Positions 19,407-55,885 are shown, counted from the stretch's first letter. The stretch is DNA of 64,000 nucleotides from a virus (IMGVR_UViG_3300005613_000001:192279-256278), one strand, 5' to 3'. The notes: generated from the letters alone by a model not told the origin. Numbers and translations are program-made.

Positions 19407-19874
19407 TTCAGGTTCTATAACTTTCGTTTCAATCACTGTTCCATTTCCTAAATCATCTACACTATCAACAAACTGGTCAAGGTTTTTCATTTCAATGAGA
19501 CTCCAATGAGGATCATCTTCAGGGACATTCTCTGGTTTCGTCCAATAAAACTGCTCGAATTTATATTTATAGATTTTTTCAGCTACATCTTCCACCGACA
19601 TGCCGGAATGTAAATCTTCCGCCATTTCTCCACACACCCTCAATGAATCACCTTCAACAGCGCCTCCTAATTTTCTCAGCAAGATAGCACATTCTTGAGC
19701 TTTATACGTATTCACCAGCAAATTAAGAATATCGCGTTTTAAGTTGCCATCTACGAATTCAACAATAGCCGTATACTTAGCCATTGTTTGCCCTCGCTCG
19801 GGCTTATGATTTCTATTCACTTCAAAAAAGTGTTCATGAAAATTAGATTCATCAATTATCAGTTCTTCTGTCAT
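19383..19874 (-). CDS. hypothetical protein, 163 residues
   Basis: I do not recognise this protein. The central part (GNLKRDILNLLVNTYKAQEC) is helical and both ends are acidic. The ATG at 19874 is preferred because a GGGGAG site sits 6 bases upstream; an earlier in-frame start would extend further into the polymerase gene. It overlaps the DNA polymerase end by 23 bases, so it is probably translated with it. Confidence 0.6.
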   Translation of the reverse strand: MTEELIIDESNFHEHFFEVNRNHKPERGQTMAKYTAIVEFVDGNLKRDILNLLVNTYKAQECAILLRKLGGAVEGDSLRVCGEMAEDLHSGMSVEDVAEKIYKYKFEQFYWTKPENVPEDDPHWSLIEMKNLDQFVDSVDDLGNGTVIETKVIEPESEVPEGS

Positions 19875-22707
19875 TATTTTCTCCCCATTCCATAACGAAC
19901 ACACGGCTATCTCTCTCTTTGGGAGGTAGCATATGTCGCTTATGTCTTTGTGGGCTATCTAGTGTATATCCAAATTTAGTAGGCGGTTGAACCCTAATAC
20001 GTAAAAGGTTAGCGCCTGTGAATTCTTCTTCAAATCGTTCCCAATCATTGGCCCAGACAGTTACATATTGTCTTTCTCCATTACCATCTTCAACCCATAT
20101 ATTATAATTAAACCCCTTACCATTTTTCCAATCTCTTTTTTTATGAGATACAACAACCACTTCTACAGGGCCAACAGTAGCACCATCCCGCATTTCTAAC
20201 CGTAATTGAGAAAATGTGCAACCTGTATAATCTGGGCTTTTCTCTAAAGGGTGGTTCCAAATGAATCCCAGATACTTAGTCTCCGCCGATTCAGGGGAAG
20301 TATAGATTTCTTCTAATTCTTTTGGAATATAAGTATCATCACTTGTAGGATCAAATTTATCAAATGTGAATGGATTTTCGTCTGCTTCCGCCTCTTTTTT
20401 AAGATATCCTTTGATGGATCTTTCTCGTTTGCCCCATAAAGTCTTTAATCTTTTCCATTTATTCAGATTCTTCTTTTGAACTTTCCCATATTTAGGACCA
20501 GGAGTGCGACATACTTCCTCAACAATGTCATCTTCATCAAACAATTGTTGCCACAATTCTAAATTAGACTCATCAAACGTTGCCAATTCATCATGGTCAG
20601 CAAGTATTTCTTTCAACTCACTATCATACCTATCCAAAGTTTTCTGGTATCTCTTCCCACGATCTATCCTATTTTTCTCCGCAGCCTTAAAGTTTTCGTA
20701 ATATTTATACAATGTAACGGGATCGCCCTCATCAAAAAGATTAAGACCCAAAAGCGGCTTGATAACTGTGGCATCTGTACCAAAGAATCTTAAGAACTGT
20801 TCAAGAGATGCATAGGGCTGTCCTTGAACAATTTTCTCAGCATTTGACTCACCCACCCCTTTGATATTTGAAAGTCCAAAATAAATCTTATCATCAGGCG
20901 AAGGCTCTTCATTCTCTTGGATGATTGCAAATCTCACATTTGATTTACTAATATTGACTGGCTCTACGGGGATATCATGAATTACCGCCTCAGTTTTATA
21001 CTCTCTAATTTTGTCCTCTTTTGTTTCACAGCTTAGAATACCAGCGTAGAATTCAAGTGGGTAATGGGCTTTTAGCCAAAGAAGTCTTGAGCTTACATAA
21101 GTGTAGGCTACCGCGTGGCTTTTGTTAAATCCATAAGCCGCGAATGCTTCAATTTGATCCCATAGGAATCTAGTATTTGCTGCTGCGGCTGTTTGGTGGA
21201 TATTTTCTTTTGTGAGTTTGGACGGATATTGAAGTTTATACAAATAAGCAACGTATCCCAGAGATTTAGCGTAAGCATTCTCCATACCTTCATAAAATGC
21301 ATAATTCGCCACTTCTCGTTCTAATTCTTCAAATGAATCTTTATGGAGTCCAATCAGAGGCGTAACAACTTCTTTTGCATCTTTCGGGATTTCGGGCTCA
21401 CAATCACGTACTAATATTTTAGCCCCATTTTCAAGAAACATCTCTTTATACTTACCAAAAATCTCAACCTTCTTCTTACTAATAGCCTTTCTCACTTTTT
21501 CAGTGTGACTATCAGGAACCCCACCAATATATTGGAGAACCTTCATAACCTGTTCTTGATAAGCCATTACCCCGTAGGTATTCCCTAGAATACTTTCCAT
21601 AGCTGGGTGTATCGTATATGGTTCTTCTCCCTTCTTTCTTTTTACATACTTCTCCGCCATGCCCATTCCCAACGGACCAGGGCGATATAAGGCTGTGTAC
21701 GCTACCAAATCATCGAAACTTGTAACGCCTCCTTGTTTTACCAATGATCTTATTCCAGGGGAATCAAATTGGAACACGCATTTTAAATCCCCCTTGTTTG
21801 CCATTGCAATCGCTTTGGCATCATCTAGATAAGCCGTATCTGACCAATCCCGTTGTCCAGGTAATGCGCAGATTGAATCCAAACCATGACGAGCTTTCAC
21901 TAATTGACAAATTCTACCAATTTGTTCCAAGTTCGTAATTACAAGAAGATCAAATTTTACCAGACCCAATGGCCCAAGCTCCTGTGCATTCAATCCCTCA
22001 ACAAAGGCAGAGGTAATTTGTTCAGCCCTATCAACCACAAGGGGAACAAAATTACCAAGAGGTTTATTAGAAATAATCAAACCCGCAGCATGCTTGCCCA
22101 TGCTCTTATTGCGATTTGTGAGCTTTCTAGCCGCATTGTAAATATCAGGATTCGCTTCACAAAACTCTGCAAGGGCAGGATTTAATCGCAGTGCGTCTTC
22201 CCAAGTAACCGCATCACCCTCTTCATCTTTATCTACTAAATATTTGGTAATTGCCACCATTTCATCCCGACTCTTACCATAAACCTTAGCAATATCAATA
22301 AGAGAGCTACGCATACCAAACGTATTATAACTGCCGATATTGCAAACCCGTTCTGGACCGAAGGCATTAGGTGCCCATTCCTCCTTCAAATAATCTCGTA
22401 TTGTCTTGTGGAAGTCTACATCTACATCAGGCATATCCCCATCAAATTCAAAAACAGGCTTCTCATTAATATCAAAATCAGGAACCAAATTTAAAAGATA
22501 AGCTACCAAGAGATTGTTTTGATTAACAGGATAACGGATTTTCTTTTCTTGAAACTCATCGTATAAATCAACAAAATATTGAGCTTCATTCTTGGTTTTT
22601 ATAGCCTTAATCTCCTCAGACAATCGCCCCTTGTGTAGATCATCCTCTAAACCCCGCCTCTTTAAAGCGCTAGCACACAAATAAATCAGTCTATCTTGGT
22701 AGTTCAT
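19852..22707 (-). CDS. dnaE: DNA polymerase III alpha, C-terminal catalytic half
   Basis: This 951-residue protein carries the palm, thumb, fingers, helix-hairpin-helix and OB-fold parts of a C-family polymerase. The catalytic Asp pair is in MPDVDVDF (residues 92-99) and the third acid in VKFDLLVITNLEQI. The PHP domain and the GPGRGS loop are absent; they lie in the separate gene at 37876. The first 90 residues look like a degenerate second copy of the segment that ends the N-terminal half. No intein motifs are present at the junction. I choose the ATG at 22707 (MNYQDRL); an upstream ATG at 22713 is possible, and the furthest in-frame ATG would overlap the divergent metacaspase ribosome site. 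Confidence 0.92.
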   Translation of the reverse strand: MNYQDRLIYLCASALKRRGLEDDLHKGRLSEEIKAIKTKNEAQYFVDLYDEFQEKKIRYPVNQNNLLVAYLLNLVPDFDINEKPVFEFDGDMPDVDVDFHKTIRDYLKEEWAPNAFGPERVCNIGSYNTFGMRSSLIDIAKVYGKSRDEMVAITKYLVDKDEEGDAVTWEDALRLNPALAEFCEANPDIYNAARKLTNRNKSMGKHAAGLIISNKPLGNFVPLVVDRAEQITSAFVEGLNAQELGPLGLVKFDLLVITNLEQIGRICQLVKARHGLDSICALPGQRDWSDTAYLDDAKAIAMANKGDLKCVFQFDSPGIRSLVKQGGVTSFDDLVAYTALYRPGPLGMGMAEKYVKRKKGEEPYTIHPAMESILGNTYGVMAYQEQVMKVLQYIGGVPDSHTEKVRKAISKKKVEIFGKYKEMFLENGAKILVRDCEPEIPKDAKEVVTPLIGLHKDSFEELEREVANYAFYEGMENAYAKSLGYVAYLYKLQYPSKLTKENIHQTAAAANTRFLWDQIEAFAAYGFNKSHAVAYTYVSSRLLWLKAHYPLEFYAGILSCETKEDKIREYKTEAVIHDIPVEPVNISKSNVRFAIIQENEEPSPDDKIYFGLSNIKGVGESNAEKIVQGQPYASLEQFLRFFGTDATVIKPLLGLNLFDEGDPVTLYKYYENFKAAEKNRIDRGKRYQKTLDRYDSELKEILADHDELATFDESNLELWQQLFDEDDIVEEVCRTPGPKYGKVQKKNLNKWKRLKTLWGKRERSIKGYLKKEAEADENPFTFDKFDPTSDDTYIPKELEEIYTSPESAETKYLGFIWNHPLEKSPDYTGCTFSQLRLEMRDGATVGPVEVVVVSHKKRDWKNGKGFNYNIWVEDGNGERQYVTVWANDWERFEEEFTGANLLRIRVQPPTKFGYTLDSPQRHKRHMLPPKERDSRVFVMEWGENNDRRTDN

Positions 22708-22730
22708 AAGCATAAATATAATTGATTCTC

Positions 22731-22738
22731 TATAAATC
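22731..22738 (+). promoter_or_regulatory. TATAAATC box upstream of the metacaspase gene
   Basis: TATAAATC lies 15 bases before the metacaspase ATG, in the 46-base divergent gap next to the polymerase start. It resembles the T4-late-like boxes seen before other plus-strand genes. Confidence 0.35.
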
Positions 22739-22753
22739 GTCAAGGGAGACAAT

Positions 22754-35835: not shown

Positions 35836-36966
35836 ATGAAGGTACTAGTATCAGGCTGCTTCGATCTAATCCACAGCGGCCATATCCAATTTCTTAAAGA
35901 AGCCGCTGAATACGGCGATCTATATGTCTCCATTGGATCAGATCAAACAATCCAAGAACTAAAAAATAGAACTCCCATCTATAACGAGCAAGAACGCCTC
36001 TTTATTATGGAGTCTATCAAATATATTAAAAAAGCTTTTATCGCTCAGGGGTCTGGGACACTAGATTTCTTAAACGAATTAAAACAATTAAAGCCAGGGG
36101 CGTTTGTGGTCAATTCTGATGGTCATTCCCAAGAAAAGGAAGACCTGTGCAAAGAGCTAAAAATTAAATATATTGTCCTCAATCGGTCCCCCTACAAAAC
36201 TCTTCCCGCTCGCAGTACATCAAAATTGCTTGGCGAAATAGAAATGCCCTATCGTATTGATTTGGCAGGAGGCTGGCTGGATCAACCGTGGGTTTCCAAT
36301 ATGGGGCACGGGCCTGTTATCACCATCTCATTAGAAGCCTCACATATTTTCTTTAGAAGAAGCGGAATGGCTACCTCCACCAGAGAAAAAGCCATTAAAT
36401 TATGGGGCTCTGGGATTCCTTATGGTGACTACGAAGAAAATGCAAAACTCCTATTTTCTTATGATAATTTCCCCGATAAAGAGTTTGTTTCTGGTTCTCA
36501 AGATACATTGGGAATTGTCATGCCAGGAGTTAATAAATTAGACTATTCCGGTAAGTATTGGCCGGAAGCTATAGAGTCTATTGTAGATGATGACACTGCG
36601 CGTTGGTTAGAAGACCACATTCGCTTAGTCCCCTTATATCCAAGACCAAAAGACTATTCTGTGCTGTCCAATACCAATATTAAAGAAGAATATGTTAGAG
36701 GTTTAGCCTTCAATGCCCACAAAGTTTGGAAAGCAATTGAATTAAAACATGCCAGCATGTTAGGGCTACACGTAGAAAAGTGTTTCGGTGCCCAAGTGGC
36801 TATGTTCCCCAATATGATAACTCATAGAATAGCCAAAATAATCAAAAAATACAGAAATAAAATATTGGGAGTTAAAATATCAGGGGCGGGTGGGGGCGGA
36901 TATCTAATCTTCATCACCGATCAAGATATAGAAAATTCAATTAAAATTAAAGTGAGAACTCAATAA
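35836..36966 (+). CDS. nucleotidyltransferase-GHMP kinase fusion
   Basis: Residues 1-135 are a cytidylyltransferase-like domain with HSGH (FDLIHSGHIQF) and an ISxxR-like end. Residues about 140-376 are a GHMP kinase: substrate-region EMPYRIDLAGGWLDQP and motif 3 VKISGAGGGGYLIF. The order is activation enzyme then kinase. It resembles the pair that makes GDP- or ADP-heptose (HddA/HddC, HldE), so it may phosphorylate and activate a heptose or fucose. It is 17 bases from the acidic protein and overlaps a convergent gene by 7 bases. Confidence 0.82.
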   Translation: MKVLVSGCFDLIHSGHIQFLKEAAEYGDLYVSIGSDQTIQELKNRTPIYNEQERLFIMESIKYIKKAFIAQGSGTLDFLNELKQLKPGAFVVNSDGHSQEKEDLCKELKIKYIVLNRSPYKTLPARSTSKLLGEIEMPYRIDLAGGWLDQPWVSNMGHGPVITISLEASHIFFRRSGMATSTREKAIKLWGSGIPYGDYEENAKLLFSYDNFPDKEFVSGSQDTLGIVMPGVNKLDYSGKYWPEAIESIVDDDTARWLEDHIRLVPLYPRPKDYSVLSNTNIKEEYVRGLAFNAHKVWKAIELKHASMLGLHVEKCFGAQVAMFPNMITHRIAKIIKKYRNKILGVKISGAGGGGYLIFITDQDIENSIKIKVRTQ

Positions 36967-37875: not shown

Positions 37876-39261
37876 TTATATATCCTCAATGGGCACAGGA
37901 TCAATATTATTAAACCTTAACTTCATTGAGCGACCGCCCCTTGATTCACTAAGGAAACGCGAGAAAAGAAGATCGTGCTTAATGGGATCAACGTCGGTAA
38001 TACCCAAACAATAACAGGTCAATGCCCCTACGGCTGATCCTCTTCCGGGGCCAACTGCCTCTGATCCATCTCCCCAGCCTAGTAATCTAGGGAAGGCAAT
38101 TCTAGCCTCATCTGTCATCTGTTTTTGCATTAAGAAGTAAGTAGAGAATCCTTTTCGGCATATCAATTCATATTCTTCCTTAATCCGATTTAAATACCTA
38201 TTTTCCGTGGGCAACCTTCTAGCTTTAACTCCCTCTATGATTACCTCTTTGAACATTTCATCAGCATCAGGAAACTGGGGAAGTTTAATACTACGGTCTA
38301 ATTGTACGCCTTTTGCTTTCTCGCATATTACAACCGTATTTTGTTTAGCTTGTCTAAAGAGATCGTCAGGGATTACTTGGCTATACTTCTTGAGCCACAT
38401 TTGGTTGAGTTCATCTTCTGACTTCATCCAAAGGTTAGTATCCTGTAGTTCAAAGAAATCCGCATCAGGATTGGCTCTCATTTTCTCTTCAATTTCAGCC
38501 ATTGTTGTGTTGGTTTGAAGCATCAACATCAATCGCTGCATCAAAGCATCTTCTTCACGGCAATAGTGACAATCATTTGTGACAACGAGAGGAATGCCAT
38601 ACCTGTCGTGTGCTTTAATAATAAATTTATCAAAAGGTGTTTGTTTGTCAAAATCCAAAAGCATCATTTCCAAGTAAAAATTATCTGGAAACATCTGCTG
38701 ATATTTTTCAACCATTGCAAATCCAGCTTCATCCCCACCCTCGCAATGAAAGCCATCAAATGCTTGTCCTATCTCGCCATTATAACAGCCTGACGAGAAT
38801 ACGATTCCCTCTTTGTATTTCAGTAATTGCTCATGATTCACACGGGGTCGCTTTGGACGACCGCCCTGACCATTAATCCAAGCCCAAGAACTTAAATTAA
38901 CCAGATTTGCGTATCCAATCTCATTATAAGCTATAGCTAATAAATGGAAGCTTTTACGAAGATAAAGCTTTTCATTCTCAGTGAGGTTAGATTGGAAATC
39001 AGCATACTCATCCTTATTCCTTACACCGGGTTGCATTGGGTTGAGATATAATTCACATGCGAAAACAGGATGAATGTCGTGTTTTTCACAAGTCTTAATC
39101 TGACGGGGGATAACCCCCATTTGCCCGTGGTCCGATATACAAAGAAACTTCTGATTTACCTGCTGAGAGTATTCTGCGTACTCTTCAGGGTGAGCGTAGC
39201 CATCAAGAAGTGAGAAGTGGCTATGGCGGTGAAGGTGCTCAAAACCCACAATATCAATCAC
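37876..39261 (-). CDS. dnaE: DNA polymerase III alpha, N-terminal PHP half
   Basis: The 461-residue product contains the PHP domain (FEHLHRHSHFSLLDG, FLCISDHGQMGV, VTNDCHYC) and the first part of the palm. It ends with the GPGRGSAVGALTCYCLGITD loop and LLFSRFLSESR, exactly where the catalytic Asp motif (PDxDxDF) would follow in an intact DnaE. After that come 20 residues with no resemblance to the family or to an intein. The catalytic half lies about 15 kb away at 19852. The start is GTG at 39261, with an AAAGGA site 9 bases upstream. The halves must assemble without intein splicing. Confidence 0.92.
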   Translation of the reverse strand: MIDIVGFEHLHRHSHFSLLDGYAHPEEYAEYSQQVNQKFLCISDHGQMGVIPRQIKTCEKHDIHPVFACELYLNPMQPGVRNKDEYADFQSNLTENEKLYLRKSFHLLAIAYNEIGYANLVNLSSWAWINGQGGRPKRPRVNHEQLLKYKEGIVFSSGCYNGEIGQAFDGFHCEGGDEAGFAMVEKYQQMFPDNFYLEMMLLDFDKQTPFDKFIIKAHDRYGIPLVVTNDCHYCREEDALMQRLMLMLQTNTTMAEIEEKMRANPDADFFELQDTNLWMKSEDELNQMWLKKYSQVIPDDLFRQAKQNTVVICEKAKGVQLDRSIKLPQFPDADEMFKEVIIEGVKARRLPTENRYLNRIKEEYELICRKGFSTYFLMQKQMTDEARIAFPRLLGWGDGSEAVGPGRGSAVGALTCYCLGITDVDPIKHDLLFSRFLSESRGGRSMKLRFNNIDPVPIEDI

Positions 39262-39461: not shown

Positions 39462-39686
39462 TCATTTAGTTTCAGATTTAGCAGCCGTTTCTGCTGACTT
39501 CTTCCACTCTTCAAAGGCCGCGACTATCTTTCTAGCCTCATCATCCATAGTTTTTAGTTCTTTATTAAATGCTTCAAACTTAGCCTTGAATTCATCCTTC
39601 ATGGCTTTCTTTTTAGTGTGAATTTCAGCTATCTTCTGCGAAAATTCTACGTACTTGTCTGATAGGAAAATATCAATGTCTGACAT
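39462..39686 (-). CDS. coiled-coil protein, 74 residues
   Basis: The product is almost wholly helical and charged (AEIHTKKKAMKDEFKAKF, then EEWKKSAETAAKSE). It abuts ClpP with no gap and could be a small adaptor or virion part. The 200 bases between it and the polymerase start hold a 15-base direct repeat but no convincing gene. Confidence 0.6.
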   Translation of the reverse strand: MSDIDIFLSDKYVEFSQKIAEIHTKKKAMKDEFKAKFEAFNKELKTMDDEARKIVAAFEEWKKSAETAAKSETK

Positions 39687-40406
39687 TTATCTCTCCAATC
39701 TTACTTTCTTGTTAATTCTAATCTTGTCTAACGTCTCATAACCGGGCCAGCCCAAAACACAATCTGCGAAGCCGTAATAAACAGCTTTCTCGGCATCCAA
39801 CCACCAATCGCCACGCTCTTGCATCTTCCTTGCCAAAAATGCCATCACTTTATCTTCAGTAAGTGTTTTATAGCGATTCTGAAAGTGTTCCCCATTTATA
39901 CACCTTTTCGCATAAATACGCAACATTCTTTCTGCTGCTTTTTTAGAAGCTTCTGCTGCGGACATATATGCTAAATAATGATCTTCATTTCCCTCAGAAC
40001 CATAATGAATCATAAAATCCGAGTCAGGCATCATCACTCTTTTGCTAGCCGCCTGTAAAATTAAACTACTCATTGAACGAGCATGAGCATATGCTAGGAT
40101 AGTCACAGGTGATTTAGCGAATTCAATCGCATTATACATCCCCATCCCATCATTCCAGTTGCCGCCGAAGGTATGCATGTGGACGAGAATATTGGCTTGC
40201 CCCTCTTGATCCAGAATACGCATGTTCTTTTCAAAAGTCGTCGCCATTCTGTATTCAACGCCAGGCTCTTCACTATCACCTGATCCGTAGTACCCGTGGA
40301 GAAAAATCTCCCTGGTAAATACGTTGACATTATGATGGTGAGCATCTGTTAAAATCTGCTCGATCTTAGACCCAGAGTGTTTCGGAGTTAATTTAGGGGG
40401 AGCCAT
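39687..40406 (-). CDS. ClpP-family serine protease
   Basis: The 239-residue product has the ClpP catalytic Ser in ARSMSSL, His in FMIHYGS and the alpha/beta fold order (ILVHMHTFGGNWNDGMGMYN). The N terminus carries a longer lead than housekeeping ClpP. Phage ClpP-like proteins often act as prohead proteases or with host Clp ATPases. It begins the downstream end of the SpoVR-DUF444-PrkA run; the gap to SpoVR is 64 bases. I prefer the ATG at 40406 over the one two codons upstream. Confidence 0.85.
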   Translation of the reverse strand: MAPPKLTPKHSGSKIEQILTDAHHHNVNVFTREIFLHGYYGSGDSEEPGVEYRMATTFEKNMRILDQEGQANILVHMHTFGGNWNDGMGMYNAIEFAKSPVTILAYAHARSMSSLILQAASKRVMMPDSDFMIHYGSEGNEDHYLAYMSAAEASKKAAERMLRIYAKRCINGEHFQNRYKTLTEDKVMAFLARKMQERGDWWLDAEKAVYYGFADCVLGWPGYETLDKIRINKKVRLER

Positions 40407-40470
40407 AATCACCTTTAAATAGAACCTATTTAATGTAGTAGAGCCGCCCCAAAAGATTGCCTGACTTTAC

Positions 40471-42105
40471 CTATGTATTGGCTATGAAACGACTTACATT
40501 CGGCTCAGCCCATTTATTTTCGTACTCATCACGCGACATTACACGCACATTGTCTTCAGACTTGGGATCGTCACATATATAAACAATCTCCTGATTGTCA
40601 CCGTCTCTTGTGGATAATAAAACAGAGTTCTTCCAAATATTACAAATTGAAACCATAACGGCTCTTGCATAAGGCTCATGTAGTGGTCTGCCGTCCCATG
40701 TGTGTTCTAACAAAAATGTTCCACGACCACGATGGTTTGGATCAACCAAACGAATATGAGGCTGTCCACCATTCAAATAACTCTTAAGAAGCTTCTTTTT
40801 AATTTGTTGATAATCCTTACTGACTATGACATACTCGCCCTTTGGGGTTTTTTCCCACTCAAAGAATTCATTCTCATTACAAAAATCTTCTGTAAAGAAT
40901 TCGGAAATAGCCATAAAGTCATCATAGCACTTTCTGACTTCAAAAATCTTCTCTTTCCCTAAACCCAACTCTTTATCCCAATCTTCTCTTTCTTTTAAAT
41001 TGTCACATGATTCGTACTCTTCTCCAAACCTTCCTTTATTCCACCTATCTTCTATATCTTGGAATATTTGGAATCCTAATTTGTATGGATTCAAAGAATA
41101 CTTGCCACCCATAACCATCATTCTAGCCTTGGCATATTCTACTATACCGCAGTCTTCACCTTCCTGCCCCAAAGCTGCCATTCCGTTGCAAGCCAAAACT
41201 TCATAATCAACCTTAGAAGCCCAGCCCTCATTCATCATCTTGGTTCTAATTTGGGGAGAAAAATACTCCGCCTCCTCATGAAGCATGGCAATAATATCCG
41301 CCTGCCATTGTTTAAGGGGCGCATTGTCTCTGAGATAGCCTAAAATATCTCGGGAAGGAGAAGTAAACAATTCTAATTGTTCGGCAATTTCAGCCTTCTT
41401 TATTCTCTCTTGCTCCTTCTTCTTCCACGCCTCCGTATTAATCCAATCTTCCATATAATCCCGTTCCTCATCAACTTTGAGGCGGCGGGCGTTATGGTAT
41501 CTCCTTTTGTCTTTAAATTCTGTCTTCTTTTTATGCGTTTGCTTAGTTTTAGCAGGATCAATTAGATTCTCTAGCCTTAGAACATGATCAATAAACTCCA
41601 TCACTCGTTCTTTGCCCCACCGAGCCATATACTTTCTAATTCTCATACCATTATTTGCCATTTTGTTCATCATATTAGTATCGGTATGAGAAAAATAAAC
41701 ATTGTTCTTGAAGAAGTCATTATGTCCTAGAGCATGTGCAACCACCATCACATTATCAACAAAAGTATTACTGCTAAGACAATAGATGTAGCAAGGGTTG
41801 GTATTAATAACCAACTCCGCGATACGGCGACTTCCAATGTCATATCCTCTTTGGAGTTCTTCGTATTCCATTCCAAATTTCCAGTGAGGATACCTAACAG
41901 GGAACCCATAATATGCTGCAATTTCACTAATTTCGTCATCTCGCAACACTTCAACTACGGCAGGATAAAAGTCACAACCGTAATCCCTAACCCCTTGAAA
42001 AATCTTAGGGAGTTGTTTTTTAAGCTCTTCCGGCAAGCTTGCACCAGGAACAGTATTGTCCCCGATAAGCAATGACGATCCCATCAATGATCTTAAACTT
42101 GGCAT
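40471..42105 (-). CDS. SpoVR-family protein
   Basis: The 544-residue product shows the family features: PVRYPHWKFGMEYEEL and INTNPCYIYCLSSNTF followed by VVAHALGHNDFFKNN, and LEHTWDGRPLHEPYA near the end. SpoVR (YcgB in E. coli) works with PrkA and DUF444 in stress and sporulation. Its biochemical activity is unknown. The stop-start overlap with DUF444 is one base (TAATG), showing tight coupling. It follows DUF444 in the usual order. Confidence 0.92.
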   Translation of the reverse strand: MPSLRSLMGSSLLIGDNTVPGASLPEELKKQLPKIFQGVRDYGCDFYPAVVEVLRDDEISEIAAYYGFPVRYPHWKFGMEYEELQRGYDIGSRRIAELVINTNPCYIYCLSSNTFVDNVMVVAHALGHNDFFKNNVYFSHTDTNMMNKMANNGMRIRKYMARWGKERVMEFIDHVLRLENLIDPAKTKQTHKKKTEFKDKRRYHNARRLKVDEERDYMEDWINTEAWKKKEQERIKKAEIAEQLELFTSPSRDILGYLRDNAPLKQWQADIIAMLHEEAEYFSPQIRTKMMNEGWASKVDYEVLACNGMAALGQEGEDCGIVEYAKARMMVMGGKYSLNPYKLGFQIFQDIEDRWNKGRFGEEYESCDNLKEREDWDKELGLGKEKIFEVRKCYDDFMAISEFFTEDFCNENEFFEWEKTPKGEYVIVSKDYQQIKKKLLKSYLNGGQPHIRLVDPNHRGRGTFLLEHTWDGRPLHEPYARAVMVSICNIWKNSVLLSTRDGDNQEIVYICDDPKSEDNVRVMSRDEYENKWAEPNVSRFIANT

Positions 42106-43334
42106 TATAATCCCTGAACTTGAACTTTAATTTTTTGTCTCCCCAGAAGGTCTTTGATTGCCTTCTGGATTCCTTCATTTCTCTCATCTTCACTCATAGA
42201 TGGAGAACCATACCCGAGCGTAAAGCCCTTCTGTTTTTCTTCAGGGCCGACTCCTGTAAGCCTCACTTGCTCCCCGTCTAAATAACCTTCTTCAACCTTC
42301 TTGTGTACAAACTGTTTTAAGCTGCCCTCGTAATTCCAAGGTAGAACTTGGGTTATTCCTACAAAATTGGCTATATTGGGAGGAAACTTCTCTTTGATAA
42401 CTTGACAAAACCTATCATTATCATTATCCCAATTTTCACCATCAGAAAAGTAAAATAGGTAAATGTTCCACTTCTCGGGAGGAAAACGATATTTTAATTG
42501 TTTAGCAATCAAACTTAATGCTGATGAGCATTTAGTCCCGCCTCCATAACGATACTTATAGAATTTCTCCTCATCTACCTCTTGAGCTTCTGTATCATGT
42601 ACGAAGTAACACCGTTCTGTTTTCTTATAGAAACTACGAATCCAAACATCAATCCACCAAGACATATCAGATACAATATCACATTTAAAATCATTCATTG
42701 AGTATGAACAATCTCTTGCAAAAAAGATAACCGCATTGCTAGATGGCTTCTTCAACACTTTGTATTGCCTATACCTAAAATCGCTGTTTATAGGCGTAAT
42801 CATCCTTACCTTTTCGACCATTCCAGGTATTGCGTGCAGCTTATCCGCCTCCCCTACTTGCACCAGCCTTTGATAAGCCTTCATGAGTGTGCGTTTCATA
42901 TGTCGTAGAGAATGGGGGCCTGTTAATGAAATGTCATTATACTTATACTCAGTTTCCTCAAAGGTCTGATTTTCCTTTGGTTTAAGATTAGGAAGCTGAA
43001 GCTCATCTTGCATGAATTTTAAGATGTGTTCCAAATCAATTTGGAGTTCAATTCCTTCATTGTGTTGATCTCCTGGCTTGTTGCCTTTCCCTGGCTGTGG
43101 GTCACGACCAATCACATCTCCTGGTTTGCCGGGGCCTCTCCCAACCCCTATTTTATTATCCCCGTATTTAAACCGAGGAATAGCAATCCTATCGATTGGG
43201 ATGCCAATTTTACCACCCTTAGCCCTTTGGCGAAATATTGTGCCTTTTGACATGTATTTGCGTATAGCTTTGCGGGCGCGACCTTCCACAACATCCCTAA
43301 AGTGTTTGTGGTCTTCTTCTACTCTTCTTGGCAT
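42105..43334 (-). CDS. DUF444 (YeaH/YhbH) von Willebrand A-like protein
   Basis: The 409-residue product has the YeaH layout: basic N terminus (KAIRKYMSKGTIF), then GDxIGRGxGxGKG-like low-complexity (HKNEGIELQI region) and a vWA metal site ARDCSYSMND. It is usually an adaptor between PrkA and SpoVR. It lies after a strong terminator that separates it from PrkA, and overlaps SpoVR by one base. Confidence 0.92.
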   Translation of the reverse strand: MPRRVEEDHKHFRDVVEGRARKAIRKYMSKGTIFRQRAKGGKIGIPIDRIAIPRFKYGDNKIGVGRGPGKPGDVIGRDPQPGKGNKPGDQHNEGIELQIDLEHILKFMQDELQLPNLKPKENQTFEETEYKYNDISLTGPHSLRHMKRTLMKAYQRLVQVGEADKLHAIPGMVEKVRMITPINSDFRYRQYKVLKKPSSNAVIFFARDCSYSMNDFKCDIVSDMSWWIDVWIRSFYKKTERCYFVHDTEAQEVDEEKFYKYRYGGGTKCSSALSLIAKQLKYRFPPEKWNIYLFYFSDGENWDNDNDRFCQVIKEKFPPNIANFVGITQVLPWNYEGSLKQFVHKKVEEGYLDGEQVRLTGVGPEEKQKGFTLGYGSPSMSEDERNEGIQKAIKDLLGRQKIKVQVQGL

Positions 43335-43348
43335 TTCCTTGTCCTTTT

Positions 43349-43412
43349 AAAAAAAGGGCGTGATCTCTCTGTATAATCAAGGATGAAATATAAAAATCGA
43401 GAGACCACGCCC
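43349..43412 (-). terminator. long-stem terminator between PrkA and DUF444
   Basis: GGGCGTGGTCTCTC and GAGAGATCACGCCC pair over 14 bp (one G-U), with a loop of about 29 bases, followed on the minus strand by a run of T. It lies 9 bases after the PrkA stop and just before the DUF444 ribosome site. It may end most PrkA mRNA, with DUF444-SpoVR made by readthrough or from a separate start. Confidence 0.75.
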
Positions 43413-43421
43413 AAACCCTAT

Positions 43422-45509
43422 CTATTCATCTTCTTCCGCTAAATTTCCCCTCGCAAAAATACTCCCAACATGATCCAATACATCGGAGGCAGACTTTTCA
43501 TTGTAACCAAAATCTTTAATGAGCCTCGTCTTAATAGCATCGATCTTCTCTTGTAGGTCAGGATCAACAACAGCAGCACCGCTAACATTTAATGCACTCA
43601 ACTTAATGTGATCCTTTGTATCCTCAAACAATTTAGCTTGAAGTGCTTTCTTGAGTTCGGGGTTGGAGTCCCAAGTGAATTTCTTCCCTTTATTCGCCAA
43701 ATCACCCATGAACGCTGCTAATGTAACTCTGAAGTCCTCAGCACCCGTACCTGGAATATTGATCTTCTCTTCAATGCTTCTCATCAACTGCTCATTGGGC
43801 TCTTCCTCCCTACCAGTATAAGGATTTAACACCTTTGATTCATTAATGGAAGCCATCATATTATCAATATAATTGCTGCACAATCTGACAATTGCAGTCT
43901 TATCCGACACAAGGGCTTTCTGAACTTCATTCTTCAATATATCATCCAATTCTTTAATAGCTAAATCAGCACATTCTACATATCGCTTCAACCTCTCTTT
44001 ATCACTATACAAAGAATTGTGCTTCAAGCCTGATTTGAGTTCATTCATCACCATAAAGGGATTTACATAATCGTAATTATCACTCAGGCAATTGGAAATC
44101 TTATCCTGAACGTATCGGGCACTAATCCCACCAACCATACCCTCTTCGTCCTGCTTCTCCTTAATTTCCTTAACCTTATCCTCAGTCCATCCAGGCATAG
44201 CCCGACCGTCGTATAATTTGACCTTCTTGACCAAATCGCCAATCTCCTCATTATCTTTGAGGCGGCTTAAAATGGCGAATAAGCCCGCAATTTCCAAGGT
44301 ATGTGGAGCCACATGCTGCTTTACTTTGCCTTCGCCATAATCCTGTTCATAGACCTTCATCTCCTGTGACCATTCAAGCAGATAAGGCACATCAATCTTA
44401 AAGGTTCGGTCACGCAACGCCTCCATAAATTGATCTTCCTGCAATTTAACAAATTCAGGATTATTGGTGTGCCCAAGAAGAACTGTATCAATACCAATCT
44501 GGGGGAATTTCTTAGGCTTGATTTGCTGCTCTTGGGTAGCACCTAACAAGTCATAAAGGAATTCTTTTTGAAGCTTTAAGATTTCAATGAACTCCACCAT
44601 TCCCCTAGAACCAACACAAAATTCCCCATCAAAATTAAATGCTCGGGGATCGGAGTCACTACCAAAGTGGGCAATCTTGCTCCAATTGATATCTCCGGTT
44701 AGTTCCGTGGAGTCTTGATTTTTTTCATCCTTGGGCTGGAAGGTTGCAATGCCCACACGATCAGCTTCCGAGTGTACCTTTCTAATCACCCTAATGTGAC
44801 CGTCTAACACTTTTTGAAGATCGCCATTGTAACGGTTCAATAATTCCTTCATGTACTTCTTACACCGGGGATTTAACGAACCCATAATCCTCAAACCATA
44901 AAGCCCAATCCTGTCTTCCTCAGGGGTTAATTCATGCAAGCGATTATTCAATCCACCCAAAACCTCTTGTTGTAATTCCGCAGGGAGCAACTTCAAAGGT
45001 TCATCGTTCATTGGGCATTCATCTACATCATTTGTAGCAATGCCCTTCTGTCCCGTAGGAAGATCAACCCACTTAAATGTATACCAAGCCCCATCATCCG
45101 TGCGGGAGTATCTTTCTAACCCTCTTTTTAAGAGGCGGCAGATAGTGGATTTTGAAGACCCAACAGGTCCGTGGAAAAGTAAAATTCTTTTCTCAGGACC
45201 ATACCCCCCAGCAGCACCACGAATGAATCTAACAAAATTATTTAAAGTTTCCTCAAGTCCAAAAATGGGGATCTCTGGATCGTCAAAGAAGTGATAATTG
45301 GTATATGTGTGACGATACTTCTGAAACTTAGAAGTCCCCCCTGCCATTATCATGTCGTATATTCTTTGGTAGGCTGTGCGGATAAGGCGGGGTCGGTCAT
45401 TCACCCGATTAAGGTACTCAGAGAATGACATCTCCTCATTCAACGCACAAAACTGTTCTCGATTAAATTTGCCAAGTAGTTGCGAATAGCTGTTATTTTC
45501 AGGTTCCAT
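43422..45509 (-). CDS. PrkA-family serine/AAA+ protein kinase (YeaG-like)
   Basis: The 695-residue product has the AAA+ Walker A GPVGSSKS at residues 114-121, Walker B-like acidic run (DVDECPMNDEPLKLLP) and the C-terminal PrkA region. It is longer than E. coli YeaG (644). PrkA phosphorylates or unfolds clients and acts with YeaH and YcgB. The phage form keeps the GTxKFxxYRHTY-like early motif. Its start overlaps a TATAAATA-like sequence. Confidence 0.92.
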   Translation of the reverse strand: MEPENNSYSQLLGKFNREQFCALNEEMSFSEYLNRVNDRPRLIRTAYQRIYDMIMAGGTSKFQKYRHTYTNYHFFDDPEIPIFGLEETLNNFVRFIRGAAGGYGPEKRILLFHGPVGSSKSTICRLLKRGLERYSRTDDGAWYTFKWVDLPTGQKGIATNDVDECPMNDEPLKLLPAELQQEVLGGLNNRLHELTPEEDRIGLYGLRIMGSLNPRCKKYMKELLNRYNGDLQKVLDGHIRVIRKVHSEADRVGIATFQPKDEKNQDSTELTGDINWSKIAHFGSDSDPRAFNFDGEFCVGSRGMVEFIEILKLQKEFLYDLLGATQEQQIKPKKFPQIGIDTVLLGHTNNPEFVKLQEDQFMEALRDRTFKIDVPYLLEWSQEMKVYEQDYGEGKVKQHVAPHTLEIAGLFAILSRLKDNEEIGDLVKKVKLYDGRAMPGWTEDKVKEIKEKQDEEGMVGGISARYVQDKISNCLSDNYDYVNPFMVMNELKSGLKHNSLYSDKERLKRYVECADLAIKELDDILKNEVQKALVSDKTAIVRLCSNYIDNMMASINESKVLNPYTGREEEPNEQLMRSIEEKINIPGTGAEDFRVTLAAFMGDLANKGKKFTWDSNPELKKALQAKLFEDTKDHIKLSALNVSGAAVVDPDLQEKIDAIKTRLIKDFGYNEKSASDVLDHVGSIFARGNLAEEDE

Positions 45510-45578: not shown

Positions 45579-45917
45579 TTATTTAACTTCTCCAAAATGT
45601 TTGCCGCTGGAGATGTCATCTATGTTGTTATATGGGGTTGGACCTACGTGTGACAACTCTTCGGCCATTTTTCGTTGATCTCTTACACCACCATCTTTTT
45701 CCATTTGGTGATGGTAACGAAGATCATGAGAAGCTGCGTATTTTTTAGTGCCTTCGGGGTTGGTGAAGGTCATCGTACACGCAGAAACCTTAAGAATTTT
45801 TGCTTTAGAATTACATTCAGGACAACAAACTTTAGAATACTTGCCAGTTTCATCATAAGCAGCCAACTCTTCATAGTCATTGTCGCATTTCTTGCATTTA
45901 AACTCATACATCGGCAT
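45579..45917 (-). CDS. FmdB-like zinc-ribbon protein
   Basis: The 112-residue product begins MPMYEFKCKKCDNDYEEL and has CCPEC, matching FmdB-type zinc ribbons (two CxxC). The rest is charged and unstructured. FmdB-like proteins act as small regulators. It overlaps the next gene by 14 bases. Confidence 0.75.
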   Translation of the reverse strand: MPMYEFKCKKCDNDYEELAAYDETGKYSKVCCPECNSKAKILKVSACTMTFTNPEGTKKYAASHDLRYHHQMEKDGGVRDQRKMAEELSHVGPTPYNNIDDISSGKHFGEVK

Positions 45918-46215
45918 TTTTCTTGTCCTTTTCCTTCACTTCTATAAGCAATTTATCAAACACCATATACGCCTTGCCAATCATTCTTAACTTGGTTTTA
46001 AAAGAGTAGAATCTCCACCAAATAGACTTCTCTAACATTTTAATTGATGTTTGAAGTAGCTTTAAATTCAAATTATTTTCCTCTATCTCTAGCTGCATCG
46101 CGTGGAGAAGTTCTTCTTTATACCCTTCTTCATCTAAAAATTCCCCCTCATCATCAAAAAACCTATCAACCTCATGCCTAAATTCATCATTATCTTCATA
46201 ATCAAAATTTCTCAT
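45904..46215 (-). CDS. hypothetical helical protein, 103 residues
   Basis: I do not recognise this protein. The N-terminal half is acidic (FFDDEGEFLDEEGYKEELL) and the C-terminal half basic. I choose the ATG at 46215, preceded by an AGGA site and 3 bases after the stop of the 165-residue gene; an earlier in-frame ATG would overlap that gene by 58 bases. Confidence 0.55.
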   Translation of the reverse strand: MRNFDYEDNDEFRHEVDRFFDDEGEFLDEEGYKEELLHAMQLEIEENNLNLKLLQTSIKMLEKSIWWRFYSFKTKLRMIGKAYMVFDKLLIEVKEKDKKNADV

Positions 46216-46217
46216 GT

Positions 46218-46715
46218 TTATCCTATCATTGAATAGATGGGGTACAACTTTCTCCACAATTCTAATATCTTCCATTCATTCACTGCCATGCTTTCCTTCC
46301 GAAAGTTCGCCACCCGGATAAAGGGAGCCTCAATGCTATTTATCCATTCGGCTAATATAAAATTACCGCATCTCTCATTATAACGCGCAAAGGTAGCAAC
46401 CTCATCAGATGTGGCTTCACAAACCTCAAACCCCCTCCACTCCCTCACGGCCATCGTATCACAATTTATTTCATAGTCATATTCATGAGTGGCAGTAGGA
46501 TTAACATAATAAAATTCTAACTCAAGCTTGACACACCATTTAAACAATTCTATTGGAGAAGATTTTGATTTATCACACAAAATCATAAACTTGGCATCAG
46601 GAAGGTTTTTTAATAAAGAATACCACGACGCCATAACCATCCAGTTATGATGGGGTAAATAGTTACACTTAATCGCAATGGTAACACCATCCCCTGTCGG
46701 GCTAATTTGCTTCAT
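46218..46715 (-). CDS. hypothetical protein, 165 residues
   Basis: I do not recognise it. The layout (MASWYSLLKNLPDAKFMILC, later FIRVANFRKESMAVNEWK) suggests an alpha/beta nucleotide- or sugar-binding fold similar to small GT-A proteins, but no DxD is obvious. It is followed by the 103-residue gene after 2 bases. Confidence 0.5.
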   Translation of the reverse strand: MKQISPTGDGVTIAIKCNYLPHHNWMVMASWYSLLKNLPDAKFMILCDKSKSSPIELFKWCVKLELEFYYVNPTATHEYDYEINCDTMAVREWRGFEVCEATSDEVATFARYNERCGNFILAEWINSIEAPFIRVANFRKESMAVNEWKILELWRKLYPIYSMIG

Positions 46716-51588: not shown

Positions 51589-51720
51589 CCTCAAAACCTA
51601 CCAAAATCTAACAGTGCTAAATTTTGCGTTTGATTCTCACTTCTCCGACGACCACCTGTTGTCAAAACAACATGAACCTTATCATCTCCATGAGCGTTGA
51701 TTTCCGTCGAACTGACGGTA
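51568..51720 (-). ncRNA. predicted TnpB guide RNA (reRNA/omega RNA)
   Basis: By family knowledge, TnpB guide RNA covers the end of tnpB and the transposon right end, and its guide is the adjacent flank. Here the element ends at 51589, so the guide would begin AACGGGCAAAAAGCGTTAC in the interrupted gene. No structure was computed; boundaries are approximate. Confidence 0.35.
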
Positions 51721-52784
51721 TTTTTTAGATTACATGCAGCATTTAAGTCTCGATCCATCTCAAGACCACAGCTACACTTGTATGTTCTCTCGGATAGTTT
51801 CAAGTCTTTCTTGACCTTGCCACAACCCGAACACATCTTACTTGAAGGAAAGAACCGATCCACAAACCTAACCTCAATACCAGACCAACCAGCCTTGTAT
51901 TCCACCTGCCTACGAAACTCTCGCATGTTGGCATCGTGAATAGCTTTTGCTAAATTATGGTTTTTGGTCATGCCGCTTACATTCAGATTTTCCATCACAA
52001 TGATCTGAGGTTGCTTGGTTTTTACAATCTCTGAACTTGCTTTGTGAGTGGCATCTTTCCTAATGTTCACGACCCGTCGCCACAACCTTGCGATCTTCGT
52101 TCGTAGTTTCTTTCTTCGCTTGCTTTTCTTGTCTATCTTCTTTGCCAGCCTTCGCTGAAAGTATTTGATCTTGCTTTCCAGCTTGGATAATGCTTTGGGA
52201 TTATCATATTGGCTTCCATCAGAAGTGGTTGCCAACGTCTTGATGCCCAAGTCGATCCCCAATACATCACCTGTATTTTTATGTTCTTCAACTTCCTCAC
52301 GAACCAGAACCGAGACATACCAGCGACCCGCTTGCTCGCTCACCGTTACTGACAAAATGTGTTGGTCAGTTGGGATATATCCCACTTCTTTCAATCTAAG
52401 CCAACCGAGTCTCGGTAACTTGATTCGTTTGTTTTCAACTTTGATTGATCCAGTCAAACGGAAAGAGCCGATGCCTTTGTTTCTGGACTTGAACTTAGGG
52501 AATCCTGCTCGCTTCTCAAAGAAGTTCTTGAACGCCGTCTGTAAGTCTCTGAGGCTTTCCTGCATCGCACACTTGGAAACCTCATACATGAAGGCAAATT
52601 GTCCCTTTTTCTCCACATTGAGTTCTCGGTGCAGTTGCATGGCGTTTGGCTTAGACTCTTTCTCTTGGATGCGTCCTAACGCCCAATTCCAAGCCTTTCT
52701 CGCACAACCAGCGTTCTTCATCAGCAAAGTGCGTTGCTTATTATTTGGATCAAGTTCTGTTTTGTAAGCCTTCTGGATCAACAT
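51591..52784 (-). CDS. tnpB: TnpB RNA-guided nuclease (IS607 family)
   Basis: The 397-residue product has the full RuvC triad: Asp178 in LGIDLGIKTLAT, Glu265 in VMENLNVSG and the final Asp in MDRDLNAACNL. The zinc finger is complete (CSGCG ... CSCG). It would cut the excised target site using a guide RNA, keeping the element present. It begins MLIQKAYKTEL, a typical TnpB start. The stop is one base from the transposon end. Confidence 0.95.
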   Translation of the reverse strand: MLIQKAYKTELDPNNKQRTLLMKNAGCARKAWNWALGRIQEKESKPNAMQLHRELNVEKKGQFAFMYEVSKCAMQESLRDLQTAFKNFFEKRAGFPKFKSRNKGIGSFRLTGSIKVENKRIKLPRLGWLRLKEVGYIPTDQHILSVTVSEQAGRWYVSVLVREEVEEHKNTGDVLGIDLGIKTLATTSDGSQYDNPKALSKLESKIKYFQRRLAKKIDKKSKRRKKLRTKIARLWRRVVNIRKDATHKASSEIVKTKQPQIIVMENLNVSGMTKNHNLAKAIHDANMREFRRQVEYKAGWSGIEVRFVDRFFPSSKMCSGCGKVKKDLKLSERTYKCSCGLEMDRDLNAACNLKNTVSSTEINAHGDDKVHVVLTTGGRRRSENQTQNLALLDFGRF

Positions 52785-54502: not shown

Positions 54503-55885
54503 TTATAGGTTTTTATAAGATTTTACAACTTTTTCAATAATTTGGGTTGTAGAAACACCTTCCACTAATGGGGCATAATAGAACTCCTTAGCCAATTCAG
54601 CAGAGCGGGGTCGTTTTATACCTTCACCCTTTACGAGCACATCAGGCTGAATTTCCTTATACAAGTTATAAGGACTTTCAGTTTTAAAAGGAAGTACAAA
54701 ATCTACACACTCTAAGGAAGCAATTAAATTTAATCTCTGTTCTAAAGGTACAACAGGTCGATTTTCGCCCTTTAGCTTTTTAACACTTTCATCAGAATTT
54801 ATTAAAACAGCCAACTTATCCCCTTTTGATTTAGCAAATTGAAAAGAAGCAACATGCCCATAATGCATAAGATCAAATACGCCATTCGAACACACTAATT
54901 TAAAATCTCTATTCATCAGATCGTGGGGGTCCACAAATTTTGTTTCAACAAGCTCATAAGGATATATGGGCTTATTGTATTCCATCTGGACATAAACAGC
55001 ACCAGCCCTATAGGCAATTTCAACAGCTTCAACTAAAGAGAAATTATGAGCTATTGCTAGAGCTAAATGGGACACAAATGAGTCTCCCGCCCCAATTACA
55101 CTGGTTACTTCTGTGGAGAGATTGGGGCGGTATGAAAATGTCTTTCCATCTATTGACATCCCCATCACACCACACCCGCCATAAGTTGTTACAATATTAC
55201 TTCCACCTAACTTTTCAGCCAATCTCTGACATTGGAAATCAGGGTCTTTTACATCTGTAAATCGTTCTGCTTCGACAGAATTAGGCTTAAAAACCGAACA
55301 CCCTATCCATTTCTCAATAGGTTCATCTTTGGGATCAACTATAGTTTTAACGCCATGCGTATGACAAATTGTAATGATCTCTTGTGTAAACTTAAAATCA
55401 TTAAAAAGCCCCTTGCCATAATCACTTAAAATTGCTAATTCAAACGCATTTTTCCTAATCCCCTCTTCAAAAACCTCAAGCAACCGCCTGCGGTCATCAT
55501 GATCTATCACAAATTGACTTGTTTCAATATCCCATCTAATTAAATTTTGACCATCTTGAAATCGTTTTTTGATTGGAATTCTATTAGATGTGATAACAGG
55601 ATCAATATTTAGATGATGTAAAACATTTAAATCCTTCTGGGAGAGCAACCCAAATAATGTGTATTCCACATTCCAGTTCTTAAACTGGTGTGCTACATTT
55701 GCCGCACCACCAGGAACTACTTGAATGGGTTCGTCATCATTTGACCGCATAACGGGGATTGGGGCCTCGGGTGAAATCCTTTTTACATCCACCTTGTAAT
55801 ACTCATCAATCATTAGGTCGCCCAAAATGGCTATACGAGGCGATCTTAAACGGTTATCTGTAAGGTATTGTGCTATTATGCTCAT
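54503..55885 (-). CDS. HldE-like bifunctional kinase-nucleotidyltransferase
   Basis: The 460-residue product has a PfkB-type sugar kinase domain (about residues 15-320; NVAHQFKNW after PGGAA and the GAGDSF anion hole) and a cytidylyltransferase domain (about 330-460; FDLMHYGHVASF with HYGH and VLVKGEG). HldE makes ADP-heptose in two steps. It is similar in length to E. coli HldE (477). It may supply NDP-heptose for glycosyltransferases encoded here. Confidence 0.88.
   Translation of the reverse strand: MSIIAQYLTDNRLRSPRIAILGDLMIDEYYKVDVKRISPEAPIPVMRSNDDEPIQVVPGGAANVAHQFKNWNVEYTLFGLLSQKDLNVLHHLNIDPVITSNRIPIKKRFQDGQNLIRWDIETSQFVIDHDDRRRLLEVFEEGIRKNAFELAILSDYGKGLFNDFKFTQEIITICHTHGVKTIVDPKDEPIEKWIGCSVFKPNSVEAERFTDVKDPDFQCQRLAEKLGGSNIVTTYGGCGVMGMSIDGKTFSYRPNLSTEVTSVIGAGDSFVSHLALAIAHNFSLVEAVEIAYRAGAVYVQMEYNKPIYPYELVETKFVDPHDLMNRDFKLVCSNGVFDLMHYGHVASFQFAKSKGDKLAVLINSDESVKKLKGENRPVVPLEQRLNLIASLECVDFVLPFKTESPYNLYKEIQPDVLVKGEGIKRPRSAELAKEFYYAPLVEGVSTTQIIEKVVKSYKNL

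Follow-up and report, generated by a model that had tools for sequence, protein, structure and literature searches.

The stretch of DNA analyzed here (hereafter, the window; 64,000 nucleotides, IMGVR_UViG_3300005613_000001:192279-256278) belongs to a virus record of 527,112 bases (G000, of which it covers positions 192279-256278) and contains, at window positions 40471-45509, three genes that encode PrkA, a DUF444 protein and SpoVR (hereafter, the trio). The three open reading frames (ORFs) are intact and closely spaced on the minus strand, with the SpoVR start and the DUF444 stop sharing one base. PrkA (43422..45509; 695 aa) combines an AAA+ ATPase domain with the PrkA C-terminal domain (Pfam PF08298, 264.7 bits, 1.6e-78; PF06798, 229.6 bits, 6.6e-68; cut-offs 25). 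Next come the YeaH-type von Willebrand factor A (VWA) protein of the DUF444 family (42105..43334; 409 aa; PF04285, 222 bits, 1.7e-65; cut-off 27) and SpoVR (40471..42105; 544 aa; PF04293, 360.8 bits, 1.1e-107; C-terminal domain SpoVR_C, PF24755, 29.5 bits, 7.5e-7), and downstream of SpoVR lie a ClpP-like ORF and then a 74-aa ORF. The Walker A motif, the metal ion-dependent adhesion site (MIDAS) and the SpoVR motifs are all present, in agreement with the sequence-only reading of this DNA, which had described the trio as complete, in order and intact in its motifs.

PrkA is an AAA+ motor, placed in AAA+ clade III by a 2026 study (PMC13001217), and has a solved homolog (9xip, E = 1e-207). In its Walker A motif (GPVGSSKS, residues 114-121; 45147..45170, minus strand), G114, P115, G117, K120 and S121 are invariant among 11 phage PrkAs; N349 and R368 are invariant in the same set and, in our reading of the sequences, may be a sensor-like asparagine and an arginine finger-like residue, respectively. 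The AlphaFold model of the DUF444 protein (predicted local distance difference test (pLDDT) score 82.8) adopts the VWA fold (Foldseek E = 5.8e-8; VIA Z = 16.4, root mean square deviation 2.9 over 163 residues), and the NorQD complex is among its Foldseek matches (E = 7.8e-6). The full MIDAS is in place: D208, S210 and S212 of the DxSxS motif (D208-S212; 42699..42713, minus strand), T267 and D298 are invariant among 61 phage and bacterial proteins. A sequence search of solved structures gave no match for either SpoVR or the DUF444 protein.

Viral origin, spread and joint retention of the trio

Among the genes of G000 is one for a T4-type major capsid protein (423769-424998, E = 1.7e-83), and the record yields a terminase match (E = 3e-6); no match to the Terminase_6C or tail-sheath families was found in it. 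The capsid family is also matched, each time in part, at 289880-290362 and 120883-121092. Across 54 distinct related loci, the conserved genes around the trio include an FmdB-like zinc ribbon (49 loci), two small ORFs (in 50 and 41 loci, respectively) and an HNH protein (in 29), which are mostly located immediately upstream, and downstream we find ClpP (24), the 74-aa ORF (32) and the N-terminal half of DNA polymerase III alpha (33). Because these flanking genes are conserved, a chimera at the trio is excluded and, given also the capsid and terminase genes, a bacterial contig or assembly chimera, which according to the sequence-only reading would have undone its proposal, can be ruled out. Capsid family matches were obtained for 22 of the 33 records tested and terminase family matches for 20 of 34; these come from every large-phage group tested, and the named records of Thermus phages match neither family.

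The notion that the trio is a bacterial contaminant, a chimera or passively carried host DNA draws on records in which yeaH sits at the very end of IMG/VR prophage calls, and on phage LAU1 (L007), which starts exactly with YeaG-YeaH. Many predicted prophages (L525-L560) likewise begin exactly at yeaH or YeaG-YeaH. Such starts are probably a host-flank artifact of prophage boundaries next to enterobacterial yeaGH, and these prophage calls and LAU1 (with YeaG-YeaH at base 1) were accordingly set aside. For the window clade, contamination is already refuted and, overall, we consider its likelihood negligible, given the capsid and terminase genes on G000 and other records, the viral neighbors retained on both sides of the trio, the strong purifying selection (see below) and an identity of just ~53% to the closest bacterial PrkA.

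We identified the trio in no fewer than four phage lineages that are separated from one another. Complete trios were identified in the huge phages LR756511, LR745206 and LR756504 and in the Thermus phages phiYS40, YS40_Isch, MN1, phiLo and Lalka27a, with search hits indicating that TMA and Lalka8/27b carry it too. In the 642-kb phage LR756502, the PrkA and DUF444 genes are adjacent and SpoVR is retained ~240 kb away. In the Ralstonia jumbo phage RsoM2USA, SpoVR (ORF28) and PrkA (ORF30) are two ORFs apart (PMC8504454). The viral gene order is PrkA-DUF444-SpoVR except in the Thermus phages, where all three genes are retained in the order DUF444-SpoVR-PrkA. Profile scans of IMG/VR returned 434, 285, 365, 358, 190 and 252 relatives in overlapping sets. 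Among the best 80 of each scan, grouped into viral sets that overlap in part, the complete trio is found in 75/80, 76/76, 71/80, 73/76, 74/77 and 37/39 loci, and nearly all incomplete loci are cut off by a contig end inside the cluster; because only these best matches were examined, weaker relatives could differ. SpoVR is missing from the DNA examined for two records, L267 and L272 (the L272 contig may be enterobacterial host flank), and Bacillus phage CM1 has a lone DUF444-like VWA protein with a weak match. With the exceptions being almost entirely contig-end cuts, the possibility that relatives hold single members only, which would have counted against the trio as a unit, is rejected.

The viral sequences do not group together in the PrkA tree but fall into separate parts of it, namely, the window clade, the Thermus-phage group, a third clade of the L337 type and a YeaG-like group. 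How many times the trio was acquired does not follow from this tree, which was built quickly, includes some long branches and samples bacteria only as relatives of the window protein. The trio on phages is not new, having been annotated piecemeal in Thermus phages, and SpoVR and PrkA have been listed for the Ralstonia jumbo phage; a search of the open-licence PMC literature found no trio-wide survey in phages.

Pairwise protein distances among PrkA, DUF444 and SpoVR are strongly correlated (r = 0.91-0.94 overall and 0.80-0.85 within the window clade), partly as a result of shared phage ancestry. The ratio of nonsynonymous to synonymous substitution rates (dN/dS), calculated for close phage pairs in which dS is not saturated, is ~0.02-0.09 for all three genes, which implies that the genes are in use. 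Together with the near-universal completeness of uncut viral loci, these observations make the view that viruses retain the trio as one working unit, as had been proposed from the sequence alone, well supported. Because several lineages of phages retain the three proteins together and the selection on them is strong, we argue that they constitute one minimal machine.

Among the closest known systems, the unannotated huge phage LR756511 (595 kb) shares with the window the gene order and the FmdB-like upstream neighbor, with 64, 54 and 54% identity for PrkA, DUF444 and SpoVR, respectively, but no ClpP is seen directly after SpoVR in its record. The Thermus phages resemble the window in that the genes of a cultured phage for the three proteins are clustered; there, the proteins are annotated as SpoVR, as a serine kinase or AAA ATPase, and as a conserved, vWA or hypothetical protein. 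These phages differ in gene order, in the location of some of the trios near terminase and portal genes, in the low identity (~20-33%) and in having no annotated ClpP neighbor. The three protein families are the same as those of bacterial yeaG-yeaH and ycgB and of Bacillus prkA, yhbH and spoVR, genes that serve bacteria in starvation survival or sporulation. In E. coli, ycgB is located elsewhere in the genome, whereas the three genes of most phages form a single run. Co-conservation of the bacterial triplet has been known since 2007 (PMC2375023).

A candidate metal site and inteins in SpoVR

The AlphaFold model of SpoVR (pLDDT 86.3) points to a possible zincin-like arrangement. The motifs H124xxGH128, N292EGWA and N339PY show no or almost no variation among phage relatives. 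H124 and H128 (motif H124-A-L-G-H128; 41722..41736, minus strand), the proposed ligand pair, are invariant in 67 of 67 proteins, with position 125 occupied by A (39) or V (28) and never by E. The same holds for N292, E293, G294 and A296 (motif N292-E-G-W-A-S297; 41215..41232, minus strand), where E293 is the proposed third ligand, and for N101 and P104 (motif N101-T-N-P-C105; 41791..41805, minus strand). In the model, helix 115-134 contains H124 and H128, and helix 266-306 contains E293, which is the gluzincin layout. The best structural neighbors found with VIA are 3o0y (a putative lipoprotein, Z = 10.3), 3cmn (a putative hydrolase, 9.5), LTA4H (8.9), M32 carboxypeptidase (7.3), IRAP (7.3) and ACE (6.6), that is, mostly zincin metallopeptidases, but the Foldseek matches of this model are not significant. 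SpoVR may resemble gluzincins (M1 LTA4H and M32 carboxypeptidases) in its predicted fold and has a similar downstream glutamate motif of the NEG.A type, but it has H[A/V]xGH in place of HExxH.

In phages, several SpoVR ORFs reach 860-1375 aa, and their extra parts carry intein-splicing and LAGLIDADG domains. The inteins that we read start with cysteine, end with HN and are followed by threonine or serine. In window numbering, site A lies between N101 and T102, within the N101-C105 motif, and site B between A296 and S297, within the N292-S297 motif; LR756504 carries a shorter intein between G294 and C295. Among 69 distinct window-clade SpoVRs, 10 contain an intein at site A and 9 at site B, with both in 4 proteins. 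The intein-bearing relatives are L023, L025, L027, L028, L031, L039, L049, L062, L064, L071, L072, L073, L077, L084 and L141; others are phage L010 and bacteria L184, L186, L191, L192 and L246. Of 57 SpoVRs from bacteria, 5 have an intein at site B as well (those of Chloroflexota and of a planctomycete). The phage and Chloroflexota inteins at this site are homologous, with those of phages being up to 43-44% identical to the Oscillochloris one over ~410 residues. There are two or three intein sites in SpoVR, all within highly conserved motifs, and LAGLIDADG domains are mostly present where scanned. Inteins prefer essential, slowly changing active-site motifs and, for this reason, their positions are taken to mark the key SpoVR motifs. 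No report of inteins in SpoVR was found in a search of the open-licence PMC literature.

Proposed action of the trio and alternative explanations

Conservation of the trio across bacteria is very broad, and its molecular action has been variously considered to be that of a kinase, of a protease or of neither. We give about even chances to the scenario in which the trio is one ATP-driven protein-remodeling machine that was acquired from bacteria, has been kept by large phages and works on SpoVR. Under this scenario, PrkA would be the AAA+ motor, the DUF444 protein would act as a VWA adaptor that grips its partner through the MIDAS, and SpoVR, with its zinc-peptidase-like fold and H...GH plus Glu site, would be the third component and, probably, the working end. 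If the trio works in the manner of NorQ/NorD and Mg-chelatase, SpoVR would be remodeled by the motor and the adaptor, which might, for instance, load its metal or switch it on; alternatively, these two would bring substrates to SpoVR. The AAA+/VWA pair NorQD is a precedent for a remodeling chaperone, and NorQ/NorD, Mg-chelatase, RavA/ViaA and CbbQ/CbbO all share with the trio an AAA+ motor, a VWA adaptor with a MIDAS and a third protein as the target (PMC13036017). PrkA represents a separate AAA+ family, and remodeling by PrkA-DUF444 is proposed by analogy with these pairs. The intact genes and motifs, the VWA fold, the joint retention in separated phage lineages, the purifying selection and the repeated intein insertions at the SpoVR motifs are observations, whereas a physical complex, a metal in SpoVR, a remodeling activity and a benefit to the phage are inferred.

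In E. coli, YeaG and YeaH jointly act as a metabolic brake in nitrogen starvation (PMC10954441; for work on yeaG/yeaH, see also PMC4664914). Sensitivity to antimicrobial peptides has been described for mutants of yeaH and ycgB, the ycgB result being cited as unpublished data (PMC2375023). The most economical assumption, by analogy, is that the phage trio would play the same role and keep the cell intact and quiet during infection. When nutrients are short or the envelope is stressed, it would act as in bacteria, quieting metabolism and protecting the cell or its envelope, and the host would be kept productive through a long infection. The suggestion of the sequence-only reading that the trio is useful in starved or stressed hosts would likewise be carried over from these bacterial findings. 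A more far-reaching version appears rather improbable to us, namely, that SpoVR founds a class of degenerate-site zincins loaded or activated by PrkA-DUF444, that large phages thereby hold the host protected and quiet, and that inteins home to the active-site codons of SpoVR in phages and bacteria. The cultured Thermus phages that carry the trio would offer a direct genetic test, and the proposed metal site and the intein positions name the exact residues for mutation.

Several observations weigh against the remodeling scenario or against its metal site. The SpoVR model yields no significant Foldseek match (best E = 0.56), and most of its VIA Z values fall within the range where chance arrangements occur. 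None of the 67 SpoVRs has the general-base glutamate of HExxH, which makes an ordinary peptidase activity doubtful, and the conserved histidines of YcgB-type SpoVRs are five residues apart (H114, H119), compared to four in the window, which weakens the ligand assignment. Given the missing glutamate and this different spacing, we propose, with moderate weight, that SpoVR is a metal-binding protein that is probably not a peptidase or is specially activated. Furthermore, at a Pfam E-value of 0.01, PrkA matched AAA_PrkA and no MoxR profile; because PrkA is not a MoxR-type ATPase, the NorQD analogy rests on the type of partner rather than on the family.

Some of the same facts can be accommodated if SpoVR is not an enzyme but serves as a scaffold or adaptor and merely has an arrangement in common with zincins, with the histidines and glutamate being structural or binding a nucleotide or peptide. 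The universally missing catalytic glutamate, the weak Foldseek scores and the different histidine spacing in the YcgB-type lineage all fit this explanation, which we nevertheless hold to be a minor possibility because inteins, which often reside at active sites, repeatedly occupy the conserved motifs, and because the structural neighbors are nearly all metallopeptidases. The historical annotation of PrkA as a serine/threonine kinase would turn the trio into a phosphorylation signaling module that reprograms the host, and pBAD-yeaG(K426A) indeed lacks the growth-recovery effect of YeaG in E. coli (PMC10954441). We regard this explanation as unlikely, considering that the most strongly conserved part of PrkA is the AAA+ domain, that the constant retention of the VWA protein and SpoVR would be left unexplained, and that the 2026 study, after stringent purification of B. 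anthracis PrkA, found negligible kinase and protease activity, with kinase activity not detectable (PMC13001217).

The same negligible protease activity argues against a proteolytic module in which PrkA would unfold proteins and feed a protease, either its own or the adjacent phage ClpP, although a 2022 report, as cited in that study, describes protease activity of B. subtilis PrkA (PMC13001217). The ClpP-like serine protease lies directly downstream of the trio (39687..40412, minus strand; 241 aa; PF00574, 3.8e-19), as the sequence-only reading had it, and matches ClpP in PDB (E = 1.7e-8); the putative triad comprises S113 and H136, which align with ClpP, and D202, assigned by eye. In PHROGs, head maturation proteases are matched as well, so either kind of role is conceivable for this protein. 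ClpP is encoded within 4 kb downstream of the trio in 24 of 43 distinct window-clade loci, but in only 2 of 40 and 0 of 17 loci of other viral sets and in none of 44 bacterial loci. This distribution leads us to reject ClpP as a core member of the trio: it is a neighbor, mainly in the window clade, and not part of the unit, and the proteolytic module, despite the plausible triad directly downstream in many window-clade phages, seems improbable. A chaperone machine for virion assembly or DNA packaging is suggested by the Thermus phage trios near terminase, portal and minor head genes. We find it very improbable, given that the window-clade trio adjoins the DNA polymerase III alpha half, that in G000 it is ~190 kb from the capsid gene, and that bacteria use the trio without any phage assembly.

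Other genes around the trio

The conserved neighbors, all on the minus strand, include the 74-aa ORF, a probable coiled coil (39462..39686; 32 of 54 distinct window-clade loci), and, upstream, the FmdB-like zinc-ribbon protein (45579..45917; Zn_ribbon_8, 3.6e-8; 49/54) and a 123-aa protein of unassigned function (45904..46275; 50/54). The DNA polymerase III alpha of the window seems to be split into two minus-strand genes ~15 kb apart, one encoding the PHP domain and the start of the polymerase domain (37876-39261; 461 aa) and the other the rest with the fingers and HHH (19852-22752; 966 aa); no intein ends were seen in the window. The N-terminal half beside the trio is ~400-500 aa long in most relatives and ~850-890 aa in L045, L065, L083 and L084.

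Farther away, the minus strand of the window encodes a TnpB/OrfB_IS605 protein with a Cas12f1-like TNB domain (51591-52784) and an HldE-like fusion of a PfkB kinase with a cytidylyltransferase (54503-55885), and the plus strand a cytidylyltransferase with a weak GHMP-kinase match (35836-36966); the latter two are possible sugar-nucleotide synthesis genes. In the huge phage LR756511 (L002, 945-4509), large repeated proteins that resemble glycosyltransferases by eye are encoded beside the trio.

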